Of a DNA stretch of 64,000 nt, positions 21,861 through 31,970 are shown piece by piece. Under the pieces are notes generated by a model. That model did not search any database. It worked only from the letters and a program-made list of their open reading frames with translations, and had not been told where the DNA came from. The first letter of the stretch is position 1. The number at the start of each line of letters is the position of its first letter. Location of the stretch: positions 1-64,000 of IMG/VR virus record IMGVR_UViG_3300049483_000112, one strand, 5' to 3'. This DNA is from a virus. The position numbers were made by a program, and so were the translations under genes.

Positions 21861-24800
21861 CTACAGGCGCAGCGCCAGGCGCCGCTTCAGGCTCGTCTCG
21901 CGCCGCTTTTTCTTCTTCTTGCCCGTGTTGCCGTAAGCCGTGAGCCCGCTGGTCGCGCTTGCCGATTGCACGAATTCCTTGCGCAGCCCGACGCCGCCTG
22001 TGAGCTCAGCGACGGTGCGGCTGACGATCGCTGCCACCTCGTCTGGCGTCAACTCCCCTGCTTCGCCGACTTGTTGATCCCCTTTACCAAGCCTTGTGCG
22101 GCCTGGCGCATGAACGCTTCCATTGAGCCCCCGCCCGTCCACGGAAGCATTTTTCGCTGGGGCGTCCCCTTTGAATCCGCGGTAGATGGAGTCGGAGATT
22201 TTTCCTGCTTCGTGCTGCTGTTCGAGTGCGTCATAGAGCTTCCTTTCCATGTCCTGTTGCGATGTGATAGTCCACTTGTCGAGCGACGCTTCTTTCGCGT
22301 TCCCGCGCCCGAGGCTATTGTCGACTGCGCGGACCCAGACGTTGCCCGAGCCGTTGTACTTTGCATAGAGCGCGCGCACGGTTGGCAGTGCGCCGGCGTG
22401 CGTCTTGGCGTGCTCTGTGATCGGGACCGTGCGCCCAGTGCCGAACTCTCTTTCCTGCCCTGCCGCCCGCGGCAGCGCCCCGTTCACGAGGGCGTCGACA
22501 GGATCTCGGTGGACATAGAGGATGCCGACCTGGCGGCCCGAGTCCAGCGCCTGCATCACCTTCTTCTCTGCGCTGCCGAGCGTGTTCATGTTGGTGTCGT
22601 AGATGATGTTGGCCCTGGACACCATGTCAGCAAACTCGGGCAACTTCATGCCGGACGACTTACCCGCGCCGGTGCCGCCAGCGGTGAAGAGCACGACCGG
22701 GTGCATGCCGCCGGGCACCGGCTCAGCCAGCATGCGCGCGTACAACTCCTTGATGAATAGGCTGGCCGGCTCATGGACGGCAGCGCTTTGCGTGCGGTCG
22801 GCGAGATAGTCTGGCGACAACTCGCGCGCGATGTCGGTGTTCAGCACTCGTCCGCCGAGCCCTGGCGAGTCCTTCTCGGCGAGCGCGTGGTACTCGGCAA
22901 TCGCCGCCGTGAACGCCTTCTCGTTCGTCACCTTGAACTCGTGCTCCCCCTTGCTGTTGGTGCCGGTCATCGTCATTCCGAGCTTCTGCGCCAACGCAAA
23001 CTCGATGGCCGACTGCTTGGCCGTGAGCGTAGATTGCCCTTCAGCCCTGGCAACCACAGCGGCGCGCGTGCCTTCAGAAGCGCTGGCGCCACCGCCGGCG
23101 TCCGTCCACATGCCATGTGCGTCGCGCGGCTGATCAGGATCGAACCCCTTCAACAGCGCGGACAGATTCGTTTTCATGACGCCTCCCTTGTCATCGATGC
23201 CGAGGCGCATGCGAATCACCGAGCCGAGCATGCGCAATGACTCGACCTCGTCGTTCGTCGGCTCGCGCGGCGGGCCAATATCGAAGCCGAGCAGTTCGTT
23301 GATGTTGATGAACTTTCCGACCTTGCCTTCCACCCAATCTGCGAAGCGTCGCGCGCCGTCGCTCGAACTCTTTGGCGTCGACTTCGCGCCAAGGTGCGTG
23401 TACAGGTTCTGCTCGTGAAACCACAGGCCCGCCTGAACTTGTGACGCCTTCAGGCCGGTCCTCGATGCCACCTCGTTGATCAGCGCCTTTGATGCGCGCC
23501 GCATAGGAGCGGTCGGGCCGCTGATGGCGACCATCTTCCCGTTCTTGTCCTTCACCGAGGCCTGCTTGAAGTACCTCGCGAACGTGCGCGTCATCCACTT
23601 GTCGACAACCGGGTCTTCAATCCCGTGCATGTTGCTGATGAAGGGCCCGATCTTTGGCCCGAAGATGCTCAGCCCGAGTTGTTTCTGGTTCTGCGTCTTC
23701 AAGACGAGCTTGCCCTTGCTGCCGAGCAAATCCTTTTCTGCTTCGTGCAACTCTTTGTTCGTGTGATCGGAGTAAAGCCAGGCCACCGCGCCCGCCTCGC
23801 CGAATCTCTCGACAAGCGTGTTCAGCGCGCCCATCCCCTTGGCGACGTATTCGCCGCGGATGGTCCACAGGCCAACCTTGCCAGTAAAGCCTGGCTCTCC
23901 TTGCGGGTTGTACGGTGGCAGCCGCCCAGTGCGTTCGTACTCTCGAAATATCTTCGCGCCCGTGTTCCAACTGATCATCGGGTCGGTCCCGTTCGCCGTG
24001 ATGCCGGCCACGACACCGAACAACTGTTGCTTCACCGGTTCCGACAGCGACGGGATGTATTTTTGCGTGATCTCCATCGCGGTCTTGATGTCGTCGGTGT
24101 ACCAACGCTTGAAGTCGCCCTTGCCAGTTACCTCTTCGCGCAGCAATTGGTACTTGATCTCCTCTGTGGCGGTCTGCACTGCATGCTCGAAATTCTTGGC
24201 GACTTGTTCCTTCACCTGAAGCGGATCTTTGGGGCTCGCCTCATACGCGACCGGCCCGCCTTCGCTGAACATGGCAGCGATCTGGTCAACAGACATGCGC
24301 TTGCCCTCGTGCGCCGCGCTGTTGCGAATGTTGATCGCGCTGAACTTGCCGGCCATGCCGCTCGGACCGCCCTCATCTGTCCATCGGCCGAGCTCGTCCC
24401 GCTGCTGATCCTCGCGAAACTTTTCGAGCTTCTCGGCGCGCGCACGCCGCAGCCGTGGTGTGCACGCTAGCGCTCCGAAGTCGTCGGCCTCTTCGTCGAT
24501 CTTGCCCAGGCCGGCGCGCACCTTGCGGTAGTCCTTCTCCATGATGGTCAACTCGTTTCTCATCGTCTTGCGCTGCGTCGGATCAGGCACGTAGCCGTGG
24601 CGTCGATAGAACTCCTCGGCCTTGGGCATCGCAGACAGAAAGACACCCACGCCCTTTGAGGCGGCCACTTGCTCGACCTCTTTCAACAGGCGCGACCCTT
24701 CGCCTTCTTTCAGCGAAAAGAGGTAGTCAACCTCGATGTCGTGTTCGCGCCCAGGCTGCGCTGGCGTGTACTGCACGCCGCTGACGATCCGTCCGTTCTC

Positions 24801-26474
24801 GACGACGAGCTTGTGCTGCGTACCTGCGTCGATGTCCTTTTGCCTATACAGCAGGATCGATTCCATCAGCCAGTAGGCCGCCTTCTCTTTCGGTGACGCG
24901 CCGCGCTCAAGCGCCTCTGCCTGCTGCGCAGAGTACATGTCAATCAGCACATTGCGGTTGCGCGATGTGACCGGCGTGTCGCCACTCGGTAGCGGCTCGC
25001 CATGATGTTCAGTTGAGCCGAGCAGCGTCTCGACAATCGCGTTGCCGCCTTCGTTTGTCCAGCGCCCATGATCATCGCGGGGCTGTGCGTCGTCGTACTT
25101 CGCGACCTGGCCGACCCATAGGTCGTCAGCGATCAACCCCGCCTTGACGGCGTGACGGTACACGGGCAGCGTCTTGAAGTGTGCAAGGTTGCGCACCAGA
25201 CGCATGAACTCTGGCGACTTGTATGGCGGCAGATCCCACGCGGTCTTTGTCCAGTCTGCATCCGCCTGGTCGGCATCAACGTCGATCGTTTGGTCTGTCT
25301 TGCTGAGCGCCTTGCCCATGGCCTCGTCTCTCAACTTGACCTCTGCCTGCGCGTACACGGGCCACGGCCTGTCCCATCGGCCGCCAACCGCGTTTGGCGA
25401 CAGCATGATCGCGTCAGTCTTTCCGCCAAGCACGACGAACTCGGACTCGCTCAGGCACCCGAACCCTGTCCTCGGTGTCGACAGGATTCTCGATGCGGGC
25501 ATCTTCACCAAAAGCACGTTCCCGTAGCCGCCTGCAAAGTCTGCCGCCATGTCCGCGTGCGCCGAAAACGACGACATCGGGTTCATGGTCACTTTGTAGT
25601 AGCCAGGCGGCGCTGGGGATCCTCTTGTTGCAACGATCCCGCGCATCAGCGTCACCTCTTTGAGCCCGGCTTTCGCAAGATCTGCCTGCGTCTGGCTGTA
25701 CATCTCGCGCAGGAATGCGCGCGTGCCGGCAATTGCGATCTCCGGTGACGCCGTGATGCGCATGTGATCCATCGCCTCTTGAGCCAGCCCGGTTGGGGAT
25801 ATGGGCAACTCTGGGTTCGCCACAGCCGCCGTGTCGCGCACACCCCGCAGGCCGAACTCCTGCTTCACCATCTCTTGCAGGAAAAGCGACCGCGGGTCGT
25901 GATCTGCCGATGTCACAGCCCATGACGACACAAATTGTCGAATGGCATCCTCGCTACGGAGGTGCAGTTGCTGCTGATCCGCCGGCCCAAGAAACAGGCC
26001 CGGCGCAGACTGCATCGGCATTGCAGCCATCAGCGCGCGCCAGTCTGCGTTCTTGACGAGCTCGTCCTTCAGTCGCAACTGAGATAGCTCTTTTGCTTCT
26101 TCGCCCGTCCTGACTCCAGGCCAAGCCGTATAGGCCTCTGCGTCGGCCATGCTCTGCTCTACAGGACTCCACCCGCCCAGTGCCTCGCTCGGCTTGAAGT
26201 CGCTTTGCTCGAATCGAATCGATGCTGCATGCGGCGTGCCGGCGGCCGGATCCGCAGCGCCAGTCATCTGCTCATCTGACCATCGACCGCGCTCGTCGCG
26301 CGCTTGGTTCGGGTCGTACTTGAGCAGTGCGCCGAGATCGATCTTGCCCGTGTAGCCCGAGGCGTAGATCGCCGTCGCCTGCCGCTCAGCCTGCGCGCGC
26401 GTCGGGTAGCACTTCTGATTGCCCCATTGCCAGCCTTGCTCGCCGTTGGGGAGGGTGCAACGTTGGATCGGCAT
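21861..26474 (-). CDS. Giant polyvalent head protein: ADP-ribosyltransferase, GNAT, unknown, zeta-like kinase
   Basis: 1,537 residues. A short N-terminal module (MPIQRCTLPNGEQGW, residues 1-45) is followed by four units, each opened by a tag of the form (F/Y)-D/E-x-x-Q-x-RD-x-x-G-x-W-(S/T): near residues 53, 460, 686 and 1111. Unit 1 ends in an ADP-ribosyltransferase with R278 (LMRG), SSFSAH at 301-306 and the ExE pair E343/E345 in LSESEF. Unit 2 holds a GNAT fold (EGEGSRLLKEVEQVAASKG then EEFYRRHGYVPD, 589-631). Unit 3 (705-1098) is a helical domain I cannot name, with FGPKIGPFISNMHG. Unit 4 has a Walker A GGTGAGKSS at 1266-1274 and DTNMNTLG after it, like zeta-toxin kinases. The C-terminus is a Lys/Arg tail. 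It lies between the MuF gene and the protease, so it is probably packaged and injected. Confidence 0.85.
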   Translation of the reverse strand: MPIQRCTLPNGEQGWQWGNQKCYPTRAQAERQATAIYASGYTGKIDLGALLKYDPNQARDERGRWSDEQMTGAADPAAGTPHAASIRFEQSDFKPSEALGGWSPVEQSMADAEAYTAWPGVRTGEEAKELSQLRLKDELVKNADWRALMAAMPMQSAPGLFLGPADQQQLHLRSEDAIRQFVSSWAVTSADHDPRSLFLQEMVKQEFGLRGVRDTAAVANPELPISPTGLAQEAMDHMRITASPEIAIAGTRAFLREMYSQTQADLAKAGLKEVTLMRGIVATRGSPAPPGYYKVTMNPMSSFSAHADMAADFAGGYGNVLLVKMPASRILSTPRTGFGCLSESEFVVLGGKTDAIMLSPNAVGGRWDRPWPVYAQAEVKLRDEAMGKALSKTDQTIDVDADQADADWTKTAWDLPPYKSPEFMRLVRNLAHFKTLPVYRHAVKAGLIADDLWVGQVAKYDDAQPRDDHGRWTNEGGNAIVETLLGSTEHHGEPLPSGDTPVTSRNRNVLIDMYSAQQAEALERGASPKEKAAYWLMESILLYRQKDIDAGTQHKLVVENGRIVSGVQYTPAQPGREHDIEVDYLFSLKEGEGSRLLKEVEQVAASKGVGVFLSAMPKAEEFYRRHGYVPDPTQRKTMRNELTIMEKDYRKVRAGLGKIDEEADDFGALACTPRLRRARAEKLEKFREDQQRDELGRWTDEGGPSGMAGKFSAINIRNSAAHEGKRMSVDQIAAMFSEGGPVAYEASPKDPLQVKEQVAKNFEHAVQTATEEIKYQLLREEVTGKGDFKRWYTDDIKTAMEITQKYIPSLSEPVKQQLFGVVAGITANGTDPMISWNTGAKIFREYERTGRLPPYNPQGEPGFTGKVGLWTIRGEYVAKGMGALNTLVERFGEAGAVAWLYSDHTNKELHEAEKDLLGSKGKLVLKTQNQKQLGLSIFGPKIGPFISNMHGIEDPVVDKWMTRTFARYFKQASVKDKNGKMVAISGPTAPMRRASKALINEVASRTGLKASQVQAGLWFHEQNLYTHLGAKSTPKSSSDGARRFADWVEGKVGKFININELLGFDIGPPREPTNDEVESLRMLGSVIRMRLGIDDKGGVMKTNLSALLKGFDPDQPRDAHGMWTDAGGGASASEGTRAAVVARAEGQSTLTAKQSAIEFALAQKLGMTMTGTNSKGEHEFKVTNEKAFTAAIAEYHALAEKDSPGLGGRVLNTDIARELSPDYLADRTQSAAVHEPASLFIKELYARMLAEPVPGGMHPVVLFTAGGTGAGKSSGMKLPEFADMVSRANIIYDTNMNTLGSAEKKVMQALDSGRQVGILYVHRDPVDALVNGALPRAAGQEREFGTGRTVPITEHAKTHAGALPTVRALYAKYNGSGNVWVRAVDNSLGRGNAKEASLDKWTITSQQDMERKLYDALEQQHEAGKISDSIYRGFKGDAPAKNASVDGRGLNGSVHAPGRTRLGKGDQQVGEAGELTPDEVAAIVSRTVAELTGGVGLRKEFVQSASATSGLTAYGNTGKKKKKRRETSLKRRLALRL

Positions 26475-26477
26475 CGG

Positions 26478-28253
26478 TCACTCCTCGGTGTCCGCATTGT
26501 CCGCGCCCCAGTCCTCCTTGCGGAGCACCGGCAAAACGTCGCAGTTGTGCGCAATAATGCCGCTAGCGCAATACCACCCGTCAACAGTCTGGAAGTTGTA
26601 GACATGACCCTCAAAAAATCTCCGCCCAATGCTGACCACCTTGTCGCTGAATATCGCAGCGGGAAGAGTCTTTTGCAGATCATCCGTCAAACCGGCTGGC
26701 CTAGAAACCGCACCTACATGCTTGCGCGCACCTTGGGCATCATTGATCCGCAAAGAAGGATTGAACGGTGCCGAAGTCCTGAAGTGCGAGCTTTGCATAG
26801 CGAACAAACGAGCGGATGGTGGCGTAACGCAATCCCAAGCCAGCGCGCGGCGCAGGTCAAGGCTGCGCATGCAGCCCCCAACAAGCGCGCCAAGGATTGG
26901 TGGCAAGGAAAGAACGCCACACAGCGCGTCAAGCACCTTGCCAAGACGTGGGCGGGGTTTGCGCATGAGCGTGAGTTCGTGCGCTTTTGCTCCGATGCCG
27001 GAGTGTTGGTGAAGCGGTGCTTCCGCATTGGAAAGTACAGGCCTGATTTTCGCATTGATGACACACGCCTTCTTGTCGAGGTCTGCGGTAACTATGCCCC
27101 CGGCGATAGATACAGAACCGTCCGCCGCGAGCGCATTGAATATCTCCTCCGCTCTGGATGGTCGATCCTGTTTGTCCTTATAAGGCCAGGGGATCGCGTC
27201 GGCCTCGCTGCTGCTGATCACACTATCACCTTGATGGAGTCGATCCGCGGCGACGAACCCGTTGTCGGTCAGTATTGGGTGATCAGGGGTAACGGTGAGT
27301 TCGTTTCCGCTGGCGGTCCTGATGACGACGACTTCCCCTTCGTATAGGCTCCTTGTCGCTGCTCGCACCTCTGGCCCCCAGACAATAGTGCTAGGCGCCA
27401 GACAAAGACAGTTCGGGTGCGCTGGCGGGAAGTCGATCCCCGTGTCGCCGAAGTCGTCCTCAAGGTCCACAACGCCAGCCTCTGCGGCGTCGTCGCACTC
27501 ATCAGGCTCTGGATGCGTGTCGGCAAGGATCCATCGCTTGCCCTCGACCTCGCCTGTTGCGCGCCAACCCTCGACGTTGCCCTGCACGTGCGCGAACGCG
27601 AGCTCTGTGCGCGCGATCATGTCAGCGCGCGCGGGCCCGAATGCGCCCAACTCTTCGATTGCGCTCGACAGGTCATCGGCGCTCATGCCTTCTTCGACGG
27701 CGCGACTCAACAGGCCACGCACCGCCTCGTCTGTCGTGTCGGCGTAGTCCTTCATGAGCTCGCCGCCGCGGTTGGCCGCGTAGAAGACGGCCTCGGCGTC
27801 GACTTGATGCACCATCGCTTCAGTAGCGGCGAAGCCTACTTGCTCGAGCCCGGCGCGGCCGGCCGTCTGATATGCGTCGAGGATCTCGGGGCGCAGGATG
27901 CGAATGATCTCCTCGGCCAGGTCGTCGTAGTTGGCGCGAAGGATCTTCATCACTGCGGCGACGACATCATCGTCACTTGCCTTGGCGAGCTTTTGCGCGC
28001 GCGATCCGTAGGCGGCCGCAGCCTTCGCCGCGATGGCCACGCGGTGCCGACGCAGCGCCTTGCCGATCCGGCTCGCCACCCTGCCTTCCCGGCGCGCGAC
28101 GAATCTGCCCACAGCGGTTGTGTGCGGCCGCAGGCGCCCCTTGGCGAGTTGATAGGCCGACTCCTCCTCTGCCTTCGCCAATTCGAGCGCGCGCGCGATG
28201 CCAGGCATGCTGCAGCCGCATGGTGTCCTGACGAAGACAGACCGATTCCCCAC
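26478..28253 (-). CDS. MuF-like minor head protein interrupted by an intein
   Basis: Continuous frame of about 590 residues. The extein is an SPP1 gp7/Mu F-type head morphogenesis protein: a helical N-terminal half, RADMIARTELAFAHVQGN, KRWILADT-P-DEC and the conserved HPNC motif. Residues 290-576 (counted from the TTG at 28271) are an intein; joining the exteins gives PPAHPNCL-CDVLPVL, the expected family end. The start is uncertain: GTG at 28253 has AAAGGA 9 bases upstream; TTG 28271 and ATG 28208 are alternatives. The extein product sits inside the head near the portal and aids DNA packaging or ejection. Confidence 0.88.
   Translation of the reverse strand: MGNRSVFVRTPCGCSMPGIARALELAKAEEESAYQLAKGRLRPHTTAVGRFVARREGRVASRIGKALRRHRVAIAAKAAAAYGSRAQKLAKASDDDVVAAVMKILRANYDDLAEEIIRILRPEILDAYQTAGRAGLEQVGFAATEAMVHQVDAEAVFYAANRGGELMKDYADTTDEAVRGLLSRAVEEGMSADDLSSAIEELGAFGPARADMIARTELAFAHVQGNVEGWRATGEVEGKRWILADTHPEPDECDDAAEAGVVDLEDDFGDTGIDFPPAHPNCLCLAPSTIVWGPEVRAATRSLYEGEVVVIRTASGNELTVTPDHPILTDNGFVAADRLHQGDSVISSSEADAIPWPYKDKQDRPSRAEEIFNALAADGSVSIAGGIVTADLDKKACVINAKIRPVLSNAEAPLHQHSGIGAKAHELTLMRKPRPRLGKVLDALCGVLSLPPILGALVGGCMRSLDLRRALAWDCVTPPSARLFAMQSSHFRTSAPFNPSLRINDAQGARKHVGAVSRPAGLTDDLQKTLPAAIFSDKVVSIGRRFFEGHVYNFQTVDGWYCASGIIAHNCDVLPVLRKEDWGADNADTEE
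26544..27404 (-). other. Intein (287 residues) in the minor head protein
   Basis: The N-terminal splice block starts at Cys (CLAPSTIVWGP); block B is GNELTVTPDHPILTDNGF with the TxxH motif; block F is FEGHVYNFQTVDGWYCASG; it ends GIIAHN followed by Cys of the C-extein. All catalytic residues of a class 1 intein (Cys1, TxxH, His-Asn, Cys+1) are present, so it should be active. No endonuclease motif is visible in its own sense translation between blocks B and F; that interval is instead antisense to the gene at 26604-27347. Confidence 0.9.
26604..27347 (+). CDS. Vsr-fold homing endonuclease encoded antisense inside the intein
   Basis: 247 residues from the ATG at 26604 (GGAAG about 9 bases upstream, weak). 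Residues 10-47 look like a resolvase-type HTH (AEYRSGKSLLQIIRQTGWPR). Two copies of a Trp-Trp repeat follow (GWWRNAIPSQRAAQVKAA; DWWQGKNATQRVKHLAKTW), similar in style to DNA-binding repeats of homing enzymes. Residues 140-195 hold a Vsr/PD-(D/E)xK core: KYRPDF, LLVEVCGNY, RRERIEYLLRSGW, then a strand SILFVLI. The gene lies wholly within the intein and its codons are exact reverse complements of the intein codons. It contains no TTA, CTA or TCA codon, as required for the intein frame to stay open. It should cut intein-less alleles to drive homing. Confidence 0.82.
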   Translation: MTLKKSPPNADHLVAEYRSGKSLLQIIRQTGWPRNRTYMLARTLGIIDPQRRIERCRSPEVRALHSEQTSGWWRNAIPSQRAAQVKAAHAAPNKRAKDWWQGKNATQRVKHLAKTWAGFAHEREFVRFCSDAGVLVKRCFRIGKYRPDFRIDDTRLLVEVCGNYAPGDRYRTVRRERIEYLLRSGWSILFVLIRPGDRVGLAAADHTITLMESIRGDEPVVGQYWVIRGNGEFVSAGGPDDDDFPFV

Positions 28254-28254
28254 C

Positions 28255-28400
28255 GTGCAACATCCTTTCAAAACAAGAGAGCACTTTTGGCAGAAAATTT
28301 CACCACTTCAAACCGCAGCATTTATGCGCCAGGCGGCGATAGTGACCACTACCGAAAGGTGCAATTTCCTTTCAAAACGAAAGAGCGTTTTTGAAATTTC
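28255..28400 (-). repeat. Duplicated ~42-base segment upstream of the minor head gene
   Basis: Copies at 28255-28300 and 28359-28400 share, on the minus strand, GAAATTT, CTCT, GTTTTGAAAGGA and TTGCAC in the same order. The downstream copy contains the probable ribosome site of the minor head gene. The region between the repeat protein stop and this gene has no other coding content, so it is a leader or promoter duplication. The upstream copy also carries a 6-bp inverted repeat AAAACG/CGTTTT. Confidence 0.55.
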
Positions 28401-28403
28401 CTG

Positions 28404-31400
28404 TCACGCGTACATCGCCACCATCTCGATGAAGTCCGCCAGGTCAGGATCGTATAGGGTTGTGTTGGCCGCAGGCGCCAGCCCGAGCGCCGTCATCGAC
28501 CCCGTAGGCACGCTGATGACGATCGGCTGCTGCCGCACTGGCGGCCTGATCGGCAGCCTGACGCGGTGCGCAATCAGCCGAGGGACGATCTGCTCTTCCG
28601 CTGGGCGAATGTCGCTGACGATGATGCTCGGGGCGAACCCGGCGAATGCACCATGGCCAGTTTCAACGCCGATCGGAACGTCGACAGGCTTGGGCCGATA
28701 GGTGCGATCGACGATGAAGTCTGGGCGTCGGTTGCCGCGGCCCCAGCCCACGCCGTCCAGGGTTGGCGGCAATGCCGGCGCAGGCGCTTCTGCAACTTCT
28801 TCTTCGCCAGGGACCAGCCCAACAATCGTCATCGACCCCGTGGGCACCTCGATGACGTGATGCTCGGTGCGCGCGACCGTCGGCGCAAAGCCCGTGAACT
28901 GCCCGGTGCCGGTGCCAGGCGTCGCGGTGATGAACTCGCTGATCAGGATCGACGGCGCTAGGCCTGCGAATGCGCCCGTGCCGGTGTCCGGTTTCACCCC
29001 CTGCCCGAGCAGCACCGATGGAGGAAGACCGACGAACGCACCAGACCCAGTCGCAACGCCGGCGATGACGTGCTCGGTACGCGAGATCGTCGGCTCGAGG
29101 CCCGTGAATACGCCAGACCCGAACCCAGGCTGCGCCGTCTTGCCTAGCGCACTGTTGAGCACCCCAGGGGCGAACCCGCCGAATGCGCCGGCCCCAGTCG
29201 GTACCGCAATAATCTGGCCGATCAGGATAGACGGGGCGAGCCCAATGAATGCGCCCGTGCCCGCGGGCGGAGTGGCCGAGATCAGGTCGCTGACCAGCGC
29301 CGTCGGCGCCAAGCCGCTGAACGCGCCAGTGCCAACCGGGACCGGCAAGTTGGTGTTCGTCGCACTGCTGACCGAGATCGTTGGCGCCAGGCCTTCGAAC
29401 GCGCCGCTGCCTACGCCAGGCGCTGCGCTGCGCAGATCCGAAACCGCAATCGATGGAACAAGCCCGGTGAACGCCCCGGTGCCAAGGCCCGGCCGCGCCA
29501 ACAGGCCGACAGTGATGATCGGGGCGAACCCAACGAAGGCACCCGAGCCGGCGCCAGGCTGCGCGATGACATTGAGCAGGGTGCTTGGGGCAATCCCAAC
29601 GAATGCCCCGCTGCCGGTGGCTGGCTGATAAGTTGACCCGCGCAGAGCAATCGGCAGCAGCCCGGTGAACGCCCCCGCCCCGACGCCTGGCGTCGCCACC
29701 ACCCCAGTGAGCAGCGTTGGCGCAAGCCCCGCCGCGGTCAACGAACCAACCCCTGGCCGGAATACATAGCCGGTGATCGCAGCGGGCGCAAAGCCCGACG
29801 CAGACAGCGTGCCGGGCCCAGGCTGCGCGATCTTGAGGTCGCTGATGGTTGCGGTAGGGGCAAGCCCTGCAAACGCTCCTGTGCCCGTTCCTGGCTGCGC
29901 GAATGCGCCAACTACGAACGTCGGCGCTAGGCCAGCGAATGCGCCGCTGCCGGCCGGCGGCTGCGCGATCGCGTTTGTCAGGATCGAAGGCGCAAGTCCG
30001 GCGAATGCGCCGGTCCCAGCCCCCGGCTGAGCGACAGTCCCGCGCAGGATGGCCGGCGCGAGTCCAGCGAATAGGCCGGTCCCGGCGCCAGGCTGCGCAA
30101 CAGTGCCAACGACCAGAGTCGGAGTAAGACCGGCGAACACCCCTGTGCCGGCACCGGGCTGGATGATCGAGTTGATCAGCAGCGACGGGGCGAACCCTGC
30201 GAACACGCCAGCGCCGGCAGGCACGGCATAGATCGCACTCGTCAGCAGCGTCGGTGCCAGCCCTGCGAACACTCCGTTGCCTGTGCCGGGCTGCACGTAG
30301 GACTGGATCAGGAGCGACGGCGCGAGCCCGACGAAAGCCCCGTTGCCTGTGCCGGGCTGCTTGATCTCTCCGCGCAGCGCCGTCGGAGCAAGGCCTGCGA
30401 AAACGCCCGTGCCAGCGCCGGGCTGCGCATACATCTGCACGAACAGCGCTGGCGCAAGCCCGGCAAATACCCCTGTCCCTGCGCCAGGCTGCGTGATCGT
30501 CCCGGCGACAACCGTCGGCGCTGCGCCAGCGAATACCCCGTTGCCCGTGCCGGGCTGTGTGATGGTGCCGCGGAGCGCTACCGGTGTTGAGCCAGCGAAT
30601 ACCCCGTTGCCGGTGCCGGGCTGCGCGACTGTTCCGATGATCAGCGTGGGCGCCAACCCAGCGAACACGCCATTGCCAAGACCGGGCTGCTCTACCTCGC
30701 CGCGCACCAATGTCGGCGCAAGGCCCGCGAACACACCGTTACCGGCTCCCGGCTGTTCGACCTCACCCCTTACCAAAGTCGGCGCGAGCCCCGCGAATAC
30801 GCCATTGCCCGTACCGGGTTGATCGACTTCGCCGCGCACAAGCGTCGGCGCGATACCGCTGAATACGCCATTGCCGGTGCCAGGCTGCTCGACCTCGCCG
30901 CGCAGCAGCGTCGGAGCGAGCCCAGCGAAGACGCCGTTGCCCGTGCCTGGCTGTTCGACCTCACCACGAAGCAGCGTCGGTGCGAAGCCGCCGAAGACGC
31001 CGTTGCCGGCGCCAGGCTGAGTGATGGTGCCGCGCAGCACCGTTGGGGCAAGGCCAGCAAACACGCCATTGCCTGTTCCCGGTTGCTCGTACATCTGCTG
31101 GAATGCGATCGGCGCCAGTCCAGTGAATGCGCCGGTGCCGTAGCTCGGGCTTGCTGTGACGTTTGCAGTGACGCCAGCCACCGGGATGGCGAACTGCGTC
31201 CACGAGACAAACCAGCCCGTCGACTTCGTCGCCGTCGGAGCGAGCCCGGTTGCGACCGCCGACCCAACTGGTACCGCAATCGTCTTGTCTTGCGCGAACG
31301 AAACCCACATCTCGCAGCCGTCGCGGCTGCCGCTGAATGTCGGGTTGTAAATCTGCGTCGCAGTTGCGCTCACCACCTTGCGCTGGGTGATGATCTGCAT

Positions 31401-31970
31401 GCCGGAGGTGGTCACGCCAACGCCGGCCTTCAGCCCCGCTGACCATGAGCCGTTGGACGTGTCCGAGTCGTCGGTCGCGGTGTCGTTGCCCTCCCGGCCC
31501 ATCGCGCCGATCACCATCGTCCCGTTTGTTAGGGACGAGGTTGTGATCGACGGGACGTTCGATGTGGCCGTTTCTTGCGCGCCAGTGACGTAGACGACCG
31601 AGTAGCCGGCCTCTGGCGTTACTTCATGCAGCGCCCACGCCTTCGCGACTGCGTTGGCGCTGATCGTCATGGTGATCGTGTTCGCCGTCGTCAGCGTGCC
31701 GACCGCCATGTTGCAGGTGAACGCGCGCATCGCCGCGCCGGCGTTCGCTGCGCCAGGGTCGATCAACGAGTTGACGCGCGAAACCCAGGTGTTCCCTACC
31801 GAGTCAGTGATCGACGAGTAGGGGTCGGCCCCGTTCGTGCCGCTGTTGTCGTATGCGCAGAACAGAACAGCCAGCGAGCCTGCGCTGAAGTTGGACCCAG
31901 GCGTGACGACGAGCGTCGTGCTCGACGAGTTGTGTGTGCCTGAACCTCGATCTGCGCCGCTGATTGCCAC
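28404..31970 (-). CDS. Giant GLAPT-repeat virion protein
   Basis: 1,188 residues from a GTG at 31970 (GGAG 6 bases upstream). Residues 1-230 form a beta-sandwich-like domain related in style to the protein encoded just upstream (32005-33030). From about residue 236 to the end there are some 38 copies of a repeat, most of exactly 22 residues, with consensus QPGTGNGVFAGLAPTLLRG. Variation is greatest toward the C-terminus, where longer proline-rich linkers appear. The regular Gly/Ala/Pro turn pattern suggests a fibrous beta-solenoid-like shaft. It is placed between head genes and probable receptor-binding proteins, so a head or tail fibre is likely. A three-repeat relative lies at 5338-5730. 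Confidence 0.8.
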   Translation of the reverse strand: MAISGADRGSGTHNSSSTTLVVTPGSNFSAGSLAVLFCAYDNSGTNGADPYSSITDSVGNTWVSRVNSLIDPGAANAGAAMRAFTCNMAVGTLTTANTITMTISANAVAKAWALHEVTPEAGYSVVYVTGAQETATSNVPSITTSSLTNGTMVIGAMGREGNDTATDDSDTSNGSWSAGLKAGVGVTTSGMQIITQRKVVSATATQIYNPTFSGSRDGCEMWVSFAQDKTIAVPVGSAVATGLAPTATKSTGWFVSWTQFAIPVAGVTANVTASPSYGTGAFTGLAPIAFQQMYEQPGTGNGVFAGLAPTVLRGTITQPGAGNGVFGGFAPTLLRGEVEQPGTGNGVFAGLAPTLLRGEVEQPGTGNGVFSGIAPTLVRGEVDQPGTGNGVFAGLAPTLVRGEVEQPGAGNGVFAGLAPTLVRGEVEQPGLGNGVFAGLAPTLIIGTVAQPGTGNGVFAGSTPVALRGTITQPGTGNGVFAGAAPTVVAGTITQPGAGTGVFAGLAPALFVQMYAQPGAGTGVFAGLAPTALRGEIKQPGTGNGAFVGLAPSLLIQSYVQPGTGNGVFAGLAPTLLTSAIYAVPAGAGVFAGFAPSLLINSIIQPGAGTGVFAGLTPTLVVGTVAQPGAGTGLFAGLAPAILRGTVAQPGAGTGAFAGLAPSILTNAIAQPPAGSGAFAGLAPTFVVGAFAQPGTGTGAFAGLAPTATISDLKIAQPGPGTLSASGFAPAAITGYVFRPGVGSLTAAGLAPTLLTGVVATPGVGAGAFTGLLPIALRGSTYQPATGSGAFVGIAPSTLLNVIAQPGAGSGAFVGFAPIITVGLLARPGLGTGAFTGLVPSIAVSDLRSAAPGVGSGAFEGLAPTISVSSATNTNLPVPVGTGAFSGLAPTALVSDLISATPPAGTGAFIGLAPSILIGQIIAVPTGAGAFGGFAPGVLNSALGKTAQPGFGSGVFTGLEPTISRTEHVIAGVATGSGAFVGLPPSVLLGQGVKPDTGTGAFAGLAPSILISEFITATPGTGTGQFTGFAPTVARTEHHVIEVPTGSMTIVGLVPGEEEVAEAPAPALPPTLDGVGWGRGNRRPDFIVDRTYRPKPVDVPIGVETGHGAFAGFAPSIIVSDIRPAEEQIVPRLIAHRVRLPIRPPVRQQPIVISVPTGSMTALGLAPAANTTLYDPDLADFIEMVAMYA
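28860..31095. repeat. 66-bp tandem coding repeats
   Basis: DNA of the repeat protein: units of mostly 66 bases, about 34 copies, many sharing runs such as CCGTTGCC and GGCTG at the same phase. The middle copies (30,300-31,050) are the most alike, the outer ones the most diverged, as expected for expansion and contraction from the centre. Confidence 0.8.

Follow-up and report, generated by a model that had tools for sequence, protein, structure and literature searches.

The locus described here lies in a window of 64,000 nt, positions 1 to 64,000 of the viral record IMGVR_UViG_3300049483_000112, and all coordinates refer to that window. A single unbroken open reading frame (ORF) on the minus strand, which the nuclease gene described below does not split in two, encodes a MuF-like minor head protein together with the intein that interrupts it (Table 1). 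Phage_Mu_F from Pfam matches this ORF at 3.1e-7, exceeding the cut-off, PHROG head and packaging matches at 1.8e-30, and NCBIfam intein_Nterm also exceeds its cut-off; Intein_splicing from Pfam matches at 1e-7, slightly under its cut-off. The start codon of the MuF gene is uncertain, TTG being the first start downstream of a stop. Upstream of the gene, at 28404-31970 on the minus strand, lies an ORF of 1188 aa that consists largely of QPGTGNGVFAGLAPT-like repeats in some 25 copies. Directly downstream, at 21861-26474 on the same strand, an ORF of 1537 aa carries about five copies of a DxPRDExGRWTDEGG-like motif separated by dissimilar segments, and resembles a multi-domain polyprotein.

Table 1. 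Features of the intein-bearing MuF gene and of the gene encoded opposite its intein (window coordinates; HEG, homing endonuclease gene).
Feature	Position	Strand	Basis or remark
MuF-like minor head (head morphogenesis) gene, intein-interrupted	26478..28271	-	Pfam and PHROG matches
Intein, class 1, 287 aa, 861 nt	26544..27404	-	C1, block-B TxxH (TPDH), HN followed by C at the end
Intein N-terminal splicing blocks A and B	27210..27404	-	Window-free profile E=5.8e-25; pLDDT 85-98
Intein C-terminal splicing blocks F and G, GHVYNFQTVDGWYCASGIIAHN	26544..26663	-	Window-free profile E=3.5e-18; pLDDT mostly 94-97
Sense linker, blocks B to F	26664..27209	-	Mostly predicted disorder; antisense-frame evolution in relatives
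Antisense HEG, 247 aa	26604..27347	+	Window-free profile E=5.1e-42; mean pLDDT 80.9
Helix-turn-helix (HTH) domain, N-terminal, presumed DNA recognition	26631..26732, residues 10-43	+	Three helices, pLDDT 87-95
PD-(D/E)xK nuclease domain, Vsr / I-Bth0305I-like	26958..27251, residues 119-216 (to 228 in the model)	+	Structure matches
Predicted catalytic Asp148	27045..27047	+	Invariant in 47-row alignment
Predicted catalytic Glu159	27078..27080	+	Invariant in 47-row alignment
HEG start ATG	26604..26606	+	Reverse complement of the conserved His codon CAT, intein block F (GHVYN)
Shine-Dalgarno (SD)-like GGAAG	26591..26595	+	8 nt ahead of HEG start; family consensus TGGAGGTTGTAAACATG
Candidate -10 AATAAT (putative)	26553..26558	+	Antisense of block G (GIIAHN); ends 45 nt before ATG

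The intein begins CLAPSTIV and closes with IIAHN ahead of a Cys, so that it shows the signatures of a homing intein (a nucleophile at position 1, TxxH in block B and HN before C at the end), and both its intactness and its extent agree exactly with the first-pass annotation, which had been made from the letters alone. The insertion point given there, between HPNC and C, needs correction: the intein precedes the second Cys of the MuF HPNCxC motif, between HPNCL and CDVLP. Joining of the exteins regenerates HPNCLCDVLP, and the spliced product would end ...HPNCL-CDVLPVLRKEDWGADNADTEE. Unlike in the window, the intein precedes the first Cys of the motif (C.C after the junction) in 59 of 65 representatives. 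The two HINT halves of the modeled intein are well predicted, with the Mtu RecA intein as the closest solved structure (best Foldseek match), and the sense linker has a pLDDT of 32-51 over most of residues 100-230, with the exception of a short helix near residues 85-94. A linker predicted to be disordered is what one would expect of an intein filler that has to tolerate whatever the endonuclease sequence dictates, as had been proposed. The claim that the sense strand itself holds no endonuclease also stood, as nuclease families searched against the sense ORF gave zero matches and the nuclease profile used below was blank on the sense strand of the window. A scan of positions 26000-28300 against Rfam returned no match up to E = 1, so the insertion does not qualify as a group I intron.

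The plus-strand ORF opposite the intein starts with ATG and stops with TAG, and its codons are, one for one, reverse complements of intein codons, precisely the register first described; second codon positions coincide, and sense position 1 faces antisense position 3. Out of all the ORFs in the six frames of the window, a nuclease profile built from 46 relatives with the window excluded matches this one only, and intein-block profiles, likewise built without the window, match only the minus-strand ORF (E-values in Table 1). An open antisense frame alone is unremarkable in this GC-rich window (P about 0.19, conditional on the sense protein and on extein codon usage), and it is the homology found that sets the ORF apart from chance. 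A chance open frame can be rejected for the family, with the P of about 0.19 acknowledged for the window taken by itself. Used as a single-protein query against viral contigs, the window nuclease found zero close relatives.

We modeled the plus-strand protein with AlphaFold on a 47-row alignment and compared the model by Foldseek and VIA. It is predicted to consist of an HTH and an alpha-beta nuclease, with I-Bth0305I (PDB ID: 3r3p) at Foldseek rank 1 (E 2.7e-3, probability 1.0; VIA Z score of 9.7) and Vsr (PDB ID: 1cw0) at a VIA Z score of 10.1, matches that place the model in the Vsr-type PD-(D/E)xK fold. The Vsr/PD-(D/E)xK nuclease and HTH of the first-pass annotation are thereby upheld at the level of a predicted structure; the Trp-Trp repeats that it also listed are unconserved in the family and are dropped. 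Besides the two predicted catalytic residues, R177 is invariant across the 47 rows, and the window nuclease has E122, D148 and E159. Its matches to the Pfam nuclease families lie under the cut-offs (MTES_1575, 15.8 vs 38.2 bits; DUF559, 14.4 vs 20.6 bits), as do those of its HTH; MTES_1575 matches 36 of the 47 rows at E<0.01 (best 1.9e-10), and HTH families of Pfam match many relatives. The inteins fall into two size classes, about 263-287 and 295-363 aa, the window having the short form, and most nucleases of the longer ones carry a second HTH repeat at the N terminus. EDFHGDG, a conserved consensus in the sense linker of relatives, is the reverse complement of the catalytic strand VAVEV of the nuclease, so what looks like an intein motif mirrors the opposite strand.

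A protein search with the plus-strand ORF had been proposed as a check, and homologs were found in number. Against 50,697 phage records, tblastn with the plus ORF gave four matches, at 26-28% identity over at least 95% of the query, each of them antisense in a head gene. Three relatives used as queries returned 57, 127, and 91 phage records, and among the tblastn matches listed nearly all were antisense inside head genes. The family includes phages of Pseudomonas, Salmonella, Escherichia, Klebsiella, Vibrio, Pantoea, Aggregatibacter, Gordonia, Mycobacterium, and Rhodococcus, among others; matches in Vibrio PvVp04_M and a Helicobacter prophage are antisense in a gene at the MuF position. The records of the Salmonella phages PK2 and vB_StyS-sam already hold antisense "hypothetical proteins" in the head gene, unrecognized (our loci L092, 2405-3214, and L093, 2626-3027), and that of Escherichia phage Snoke annotates only the intein. 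Searching viral contigs with the nuclease profile yielded 176 matching stretches, of which 80 were kept. Opposite-strand intein N blocks were present in 80/80 of these loci and C blocks in 78/80, and an open sense frame spans the whole nuclease match in 77/80, the nuclease ORF of the other three reaching upstream of the intein.

Since the pattern of the nuclease scan overlaps the antisense of block B, a source of bias, we reversed the test and fetched loci by the sense-strand C block alone (pattern GHV[YF]NL[QE]T), dropping the block-B part from the nuclease profile. This gave 105 loci, 80 viral and 25 from bacterial genomes, many of the latter being metagenome-assembled genomes. An antisense nuclease core was detected in 104 of the 105 at E<1e-5 (103 at <1e-10), including 25/25 of the bacterial-genome loci; the sole exception has just 56 nt upstream of the match. 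The same profile matched the sense strand in 0/105. The record titles, from which the taxa were taken, name Actinobacteria, Chloroflexi, Proteobacteria, Chitinophaga, Firmicutes, Acidobacteria, Ignavibacteria, Rhabdochlamydiaceae, Peregrinibacteria, and Anaeromyxobacter. Inteins free of the nuclease, sought by the C-block scan as controls, were not found there, and a synonymous null, the codon usage of the exteins of the same gene, therefore served as control in the analyses of expression signals below.

Which strand is under selection was examined through differences at sense position 1 and sense position 3 between relatives in 27 pairs; the window copy has no close relative and stands outside these pairs. 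The ratio of position 1 to position 3 differences is 1.35 in the linker (1672:1234), as against 0.61 in the N-extein (1853:3061), 0.65 in blocks A-B (302:463), 0.62 in blocks F-G (196:314), and 0.56 in the C-extein (399:712), and the linker ratio lies above the extein ratio in 26 of 26 scored pairs. The comparison of TU03 with fPSFA gives 14/3/2 differences at sense positions 1/2/3 in the linker and 61/37/137 in the N-extein. Amino acid identity of the linker in the nuclease frame equals or exceeds that in the sense frame in every pair (for example, 0.94 vs 0.79 and 0.80 vs 0.56). From these ratios and identities we conclude that the splicing blocks are selected as protein and the linker as a nuclease gene, which gives the strand-wise test that the first-pass annotation had called for a clear outcome: the plus frame for the linker, the minus frame for exteins and splicing blocks. 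A linker that is coding in the sense frame was rejected, as the position test is reversed there.

In this register only the nuclease codons TTA, CTA, and TCA put stops in the sense strand, and all have synonyms. In 65 nested nuclease ORFs these codons were seen 10 times, vs 331 expected from host codon usage, and the most AT-rich nested members have none, vs 14-17 expected each. At the AT-rich loci this register is open and other antisense registers contain up to 35 stops. Two freestanding relatives, in Acinetobacter phages, contain 12 and 13 TTA/CTA/TCA codons, and one of them has 11 antisense stops. The exact register is probably favored because the nuclease pays nothing for it in amino acids. 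Freestanding nucleases occur at 455-1348 of locus L097 (Acinetobacter phage IME285), 2501-3394 of L104, and 3001-3891 of L102; in two annotated Acinetobacter phages they are convergent to an intein-less MuF gene and overlap its end, and beyond the Acinetobacter Obolenskvirus phages the search for freestanding copies gave one further, near-identical viral contig. This arrangement suggests a route in which a freestanding nuclease beside MuF later entered an intein, and may resemble the ancestral state.

Signals for expression of the nuclease appear on the antisense of the splicing blocks. Against the synonymous null, the block-F His whose complement supplies the start codon is encoded by CAT in 46 of 55 cases (21.5 expected, z 7.5), and the Leu whose CTC codon yields the GAG of the SD uses that codon in 40 of 50 (12.6 expected, z 9.5). 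Among 100 loci fetched by the C block, His is CAT in 79 (40.9 expected) and Leu is CTC in 76 (26.5 expected). A first SD test, by longest-match score, was weakly significant (Fisher P 0.003), the codon-level tests being clear. A -10-like hexamer is enriched upstream of the HEG (Wilcoxon P 5e-21), and 43 of 57 strong -10 matches end exactly 45 nt ahead of the start, on the antisense of block G; the AATAAT of the window has the same spacing as most relatives with a strong -10 match. The signal could partly reflect intein-specific codon usage. We infer a promoter on the antisense of block G. As the sequences are related, the P values for the expression signals are too small, but the bias is consistent in direction.

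Evidence for mobility comes from empty and full alleles. In Pseudomonas aeruginosa phages, an uninterrupted MuF is 98-99% identical in protein sequence to the intein-bearing version, with an exact junction; comparison of JBD44 and BR153a with BR313c delimits the 24-bp junction of empty vs full allele exactly. Records of the Guernseyvirinae are mostly empty and some are full. These empty alleles were found in relatives other than the window's own closest ones. Between TU03 and fPSFA, DNA identity is 93-99% in the intein and 56-72% in the N-extein, and other pairs show like contrasts. An intein more similar than its exteins, together with empty and full alleles, is as horizontal spread predicts and suggests that the element moves.

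Very probably, then, the element is a mobile intein that divides its coding between two strands, the splicing domain on one and a homing endonuclease on the other; the dual coding is confirmed and the original interpretation, an antisense homing nuclease within an intein, is supported. We considered whether the nuclease, having landed antisense, is a dead passenger now decaying, its ORF held open only by the needs of the intein. Inteins in general cycle through nuclease loss, and the window copy lacks the His that follows shortly after the catalytic Glu in 43 of 47 rows, and its SD, GGAAG, is weaker, which may mean that it is attenuated. We nevertheless consider decay very unlikely as an account of the family, given purifying selection on the nuclease frame, D148 and E159 invariant over 47 divergent rows, a start codon and SD preserved above synonymous expectation, empty/full polymorphism, and an intein whose similarity exceeds that of the exteins.

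Another hypothesis is that the nuclease is real and expressed and has a role other than homing, either in repair, in the manner of Vsr, or in attack on co-infecting phages that lack the intein. The match of the fold to the Vsr repair endonuclease is as good as that to I-Bth0305I, and phage-phage interference is a further role that homing nucleases can take. However, the tight linkage to the intein in phages and bacterial genomes, presence or absence at one site, and an intein more similar than its host gene are all predictions of homing, and interference would follow from the same cleavage, so that we judge a purely non-homing role very unlikely. That the sense linker is a real conserved intein domain, and the plus-strand similarity its mirror image produced by high GC and register, is extremely improbable: GC-rich genomes open the antisense register fairly often by chance, as calculated for the window, and an alignment of the sense intein between phages also runs over its full length, but the position test is reversed in the linker in every scored pair, identity is greater in the antisense frame, the antisense protein is predicted to fold and the sense linker to be disordered, a freestanding Acinetobacter phage relative has antisense stops, and AT-rich loci keep this register open when the other antisense registers contain up to 35 stops.

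For the mobile intein with nuclease and splicing domain on opposite strands we propose the following cycle. A phage late transcript would give the MuF-intein precursor, from which the intein, with its mostly disordered linker, would excise itself. An antisense transcript, probably initiated from the -10 on the block-G antisense, would be translated, by way of the SD and ATG opposite block F (HVYNLQ), into the HTH and Vsr-like nuclease. During co-infection this nuclease would cut a MuF gene without the intein in its unbroken HPNCxC region, and the intein, together with the antisense nuclease gene, would be copied in by repair. As the insertion breaks up the cut site, the carrier would be protected.

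Several known systems share parts of this arrangement. Classical homing inteins, whose LAGLIDADG or HNH nuclease is in frame (e.g., PI-SceI), likewise have blocks A, B, F, and G, are inserted in frame at a conserved motif, have empty alleles, and carry a nuclease between blocks B and F. They differ in that the in-frame B-F endonuclease domain is part of the precursor, whereas here the nuclease is antisense, outside the precursor and with its own start, stop, and SD, and the sense linker is predicted filler. The EDxHD or Vsr-like homing endonucleases (I-Bth0305I; fractured genes) share the nuclease fold, the phage setting, and the association with inteins. In the "fractured genes" reportedly described by Dassa et al. 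in 2009, the host gene and its intein are split into two ORFs with the nuclease between them. Here, by contrast, gene and intein form one uninterrupted ORF, which the nuclease overlaps in antisense. Some nuclear group I introns carry antisense HEGs, and in them, too, a self-splicing element houses a nuclease gene that runs against its host gene, but dual coding does not arise, since intron sequence is under no requirement to encode protein. The ShiLan insertion contains an out-of-frame HNH nuclease on the same strand, with no splicing domain or SD found there (PMC11855218). As here, the host frame runs open through the insertion and another reading frame conceals a homing nuclease; the present case differs in strand and has exact register, a Vsr fold, a full intein, and an SD. 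A preprint by Gosselin, Arsenault, and Gogarten from 2025, "Actinobacteriophage Inteins: ... Non-Canonical Architecture" (bioRxiv 2025.01.02.630785), is cited in PMC11855218 for overlapping reading frames. Going by title and citation it deals with actinophage inteins, with our Gordonia and Mycobacterium members within its scope, and part of the family may already be described in it. In the literature searched, an antisense nuclease within an intein was not described, and the ShiLan insertion came nearest.

On balance we lean toward regarding these elements as a previously undescribed and widespread class of mobile inteins, found in tailed phages and in bacterial genomes of some ten phyla by their titles, that encodes on both strands in exact register and has the -10, SD, and start of the nuclease on the antisense of splicing motifs. 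If this is true, the consensus of blocks F and G (GHVYNLQT...GIIAHN) is dictated in part by the expression signals of the opposite gene. A whole family of mobile elements would have had its nuclease overlooked, a DNA-cutting enzyme that probably spreads the insert, and a nuclease on the other strand would explain how some inteins without a visible nuclease still spread. The prediction that follows is that a phage head-gene intein whose linker is long and featureless will in many cases be an active homing element; for annotators, a class of overlooked genes is revealed. The near-isogenic empty and full P. aeruginosa phages make homing directly testable. The dozens to hundreds of diverged cases of full antisense dual coding amount to a natural experiment in the sharing of DNA, one that can inform on the register that is free of amino acid cost, on the codons to be avoided, and on which strand rules which segment.
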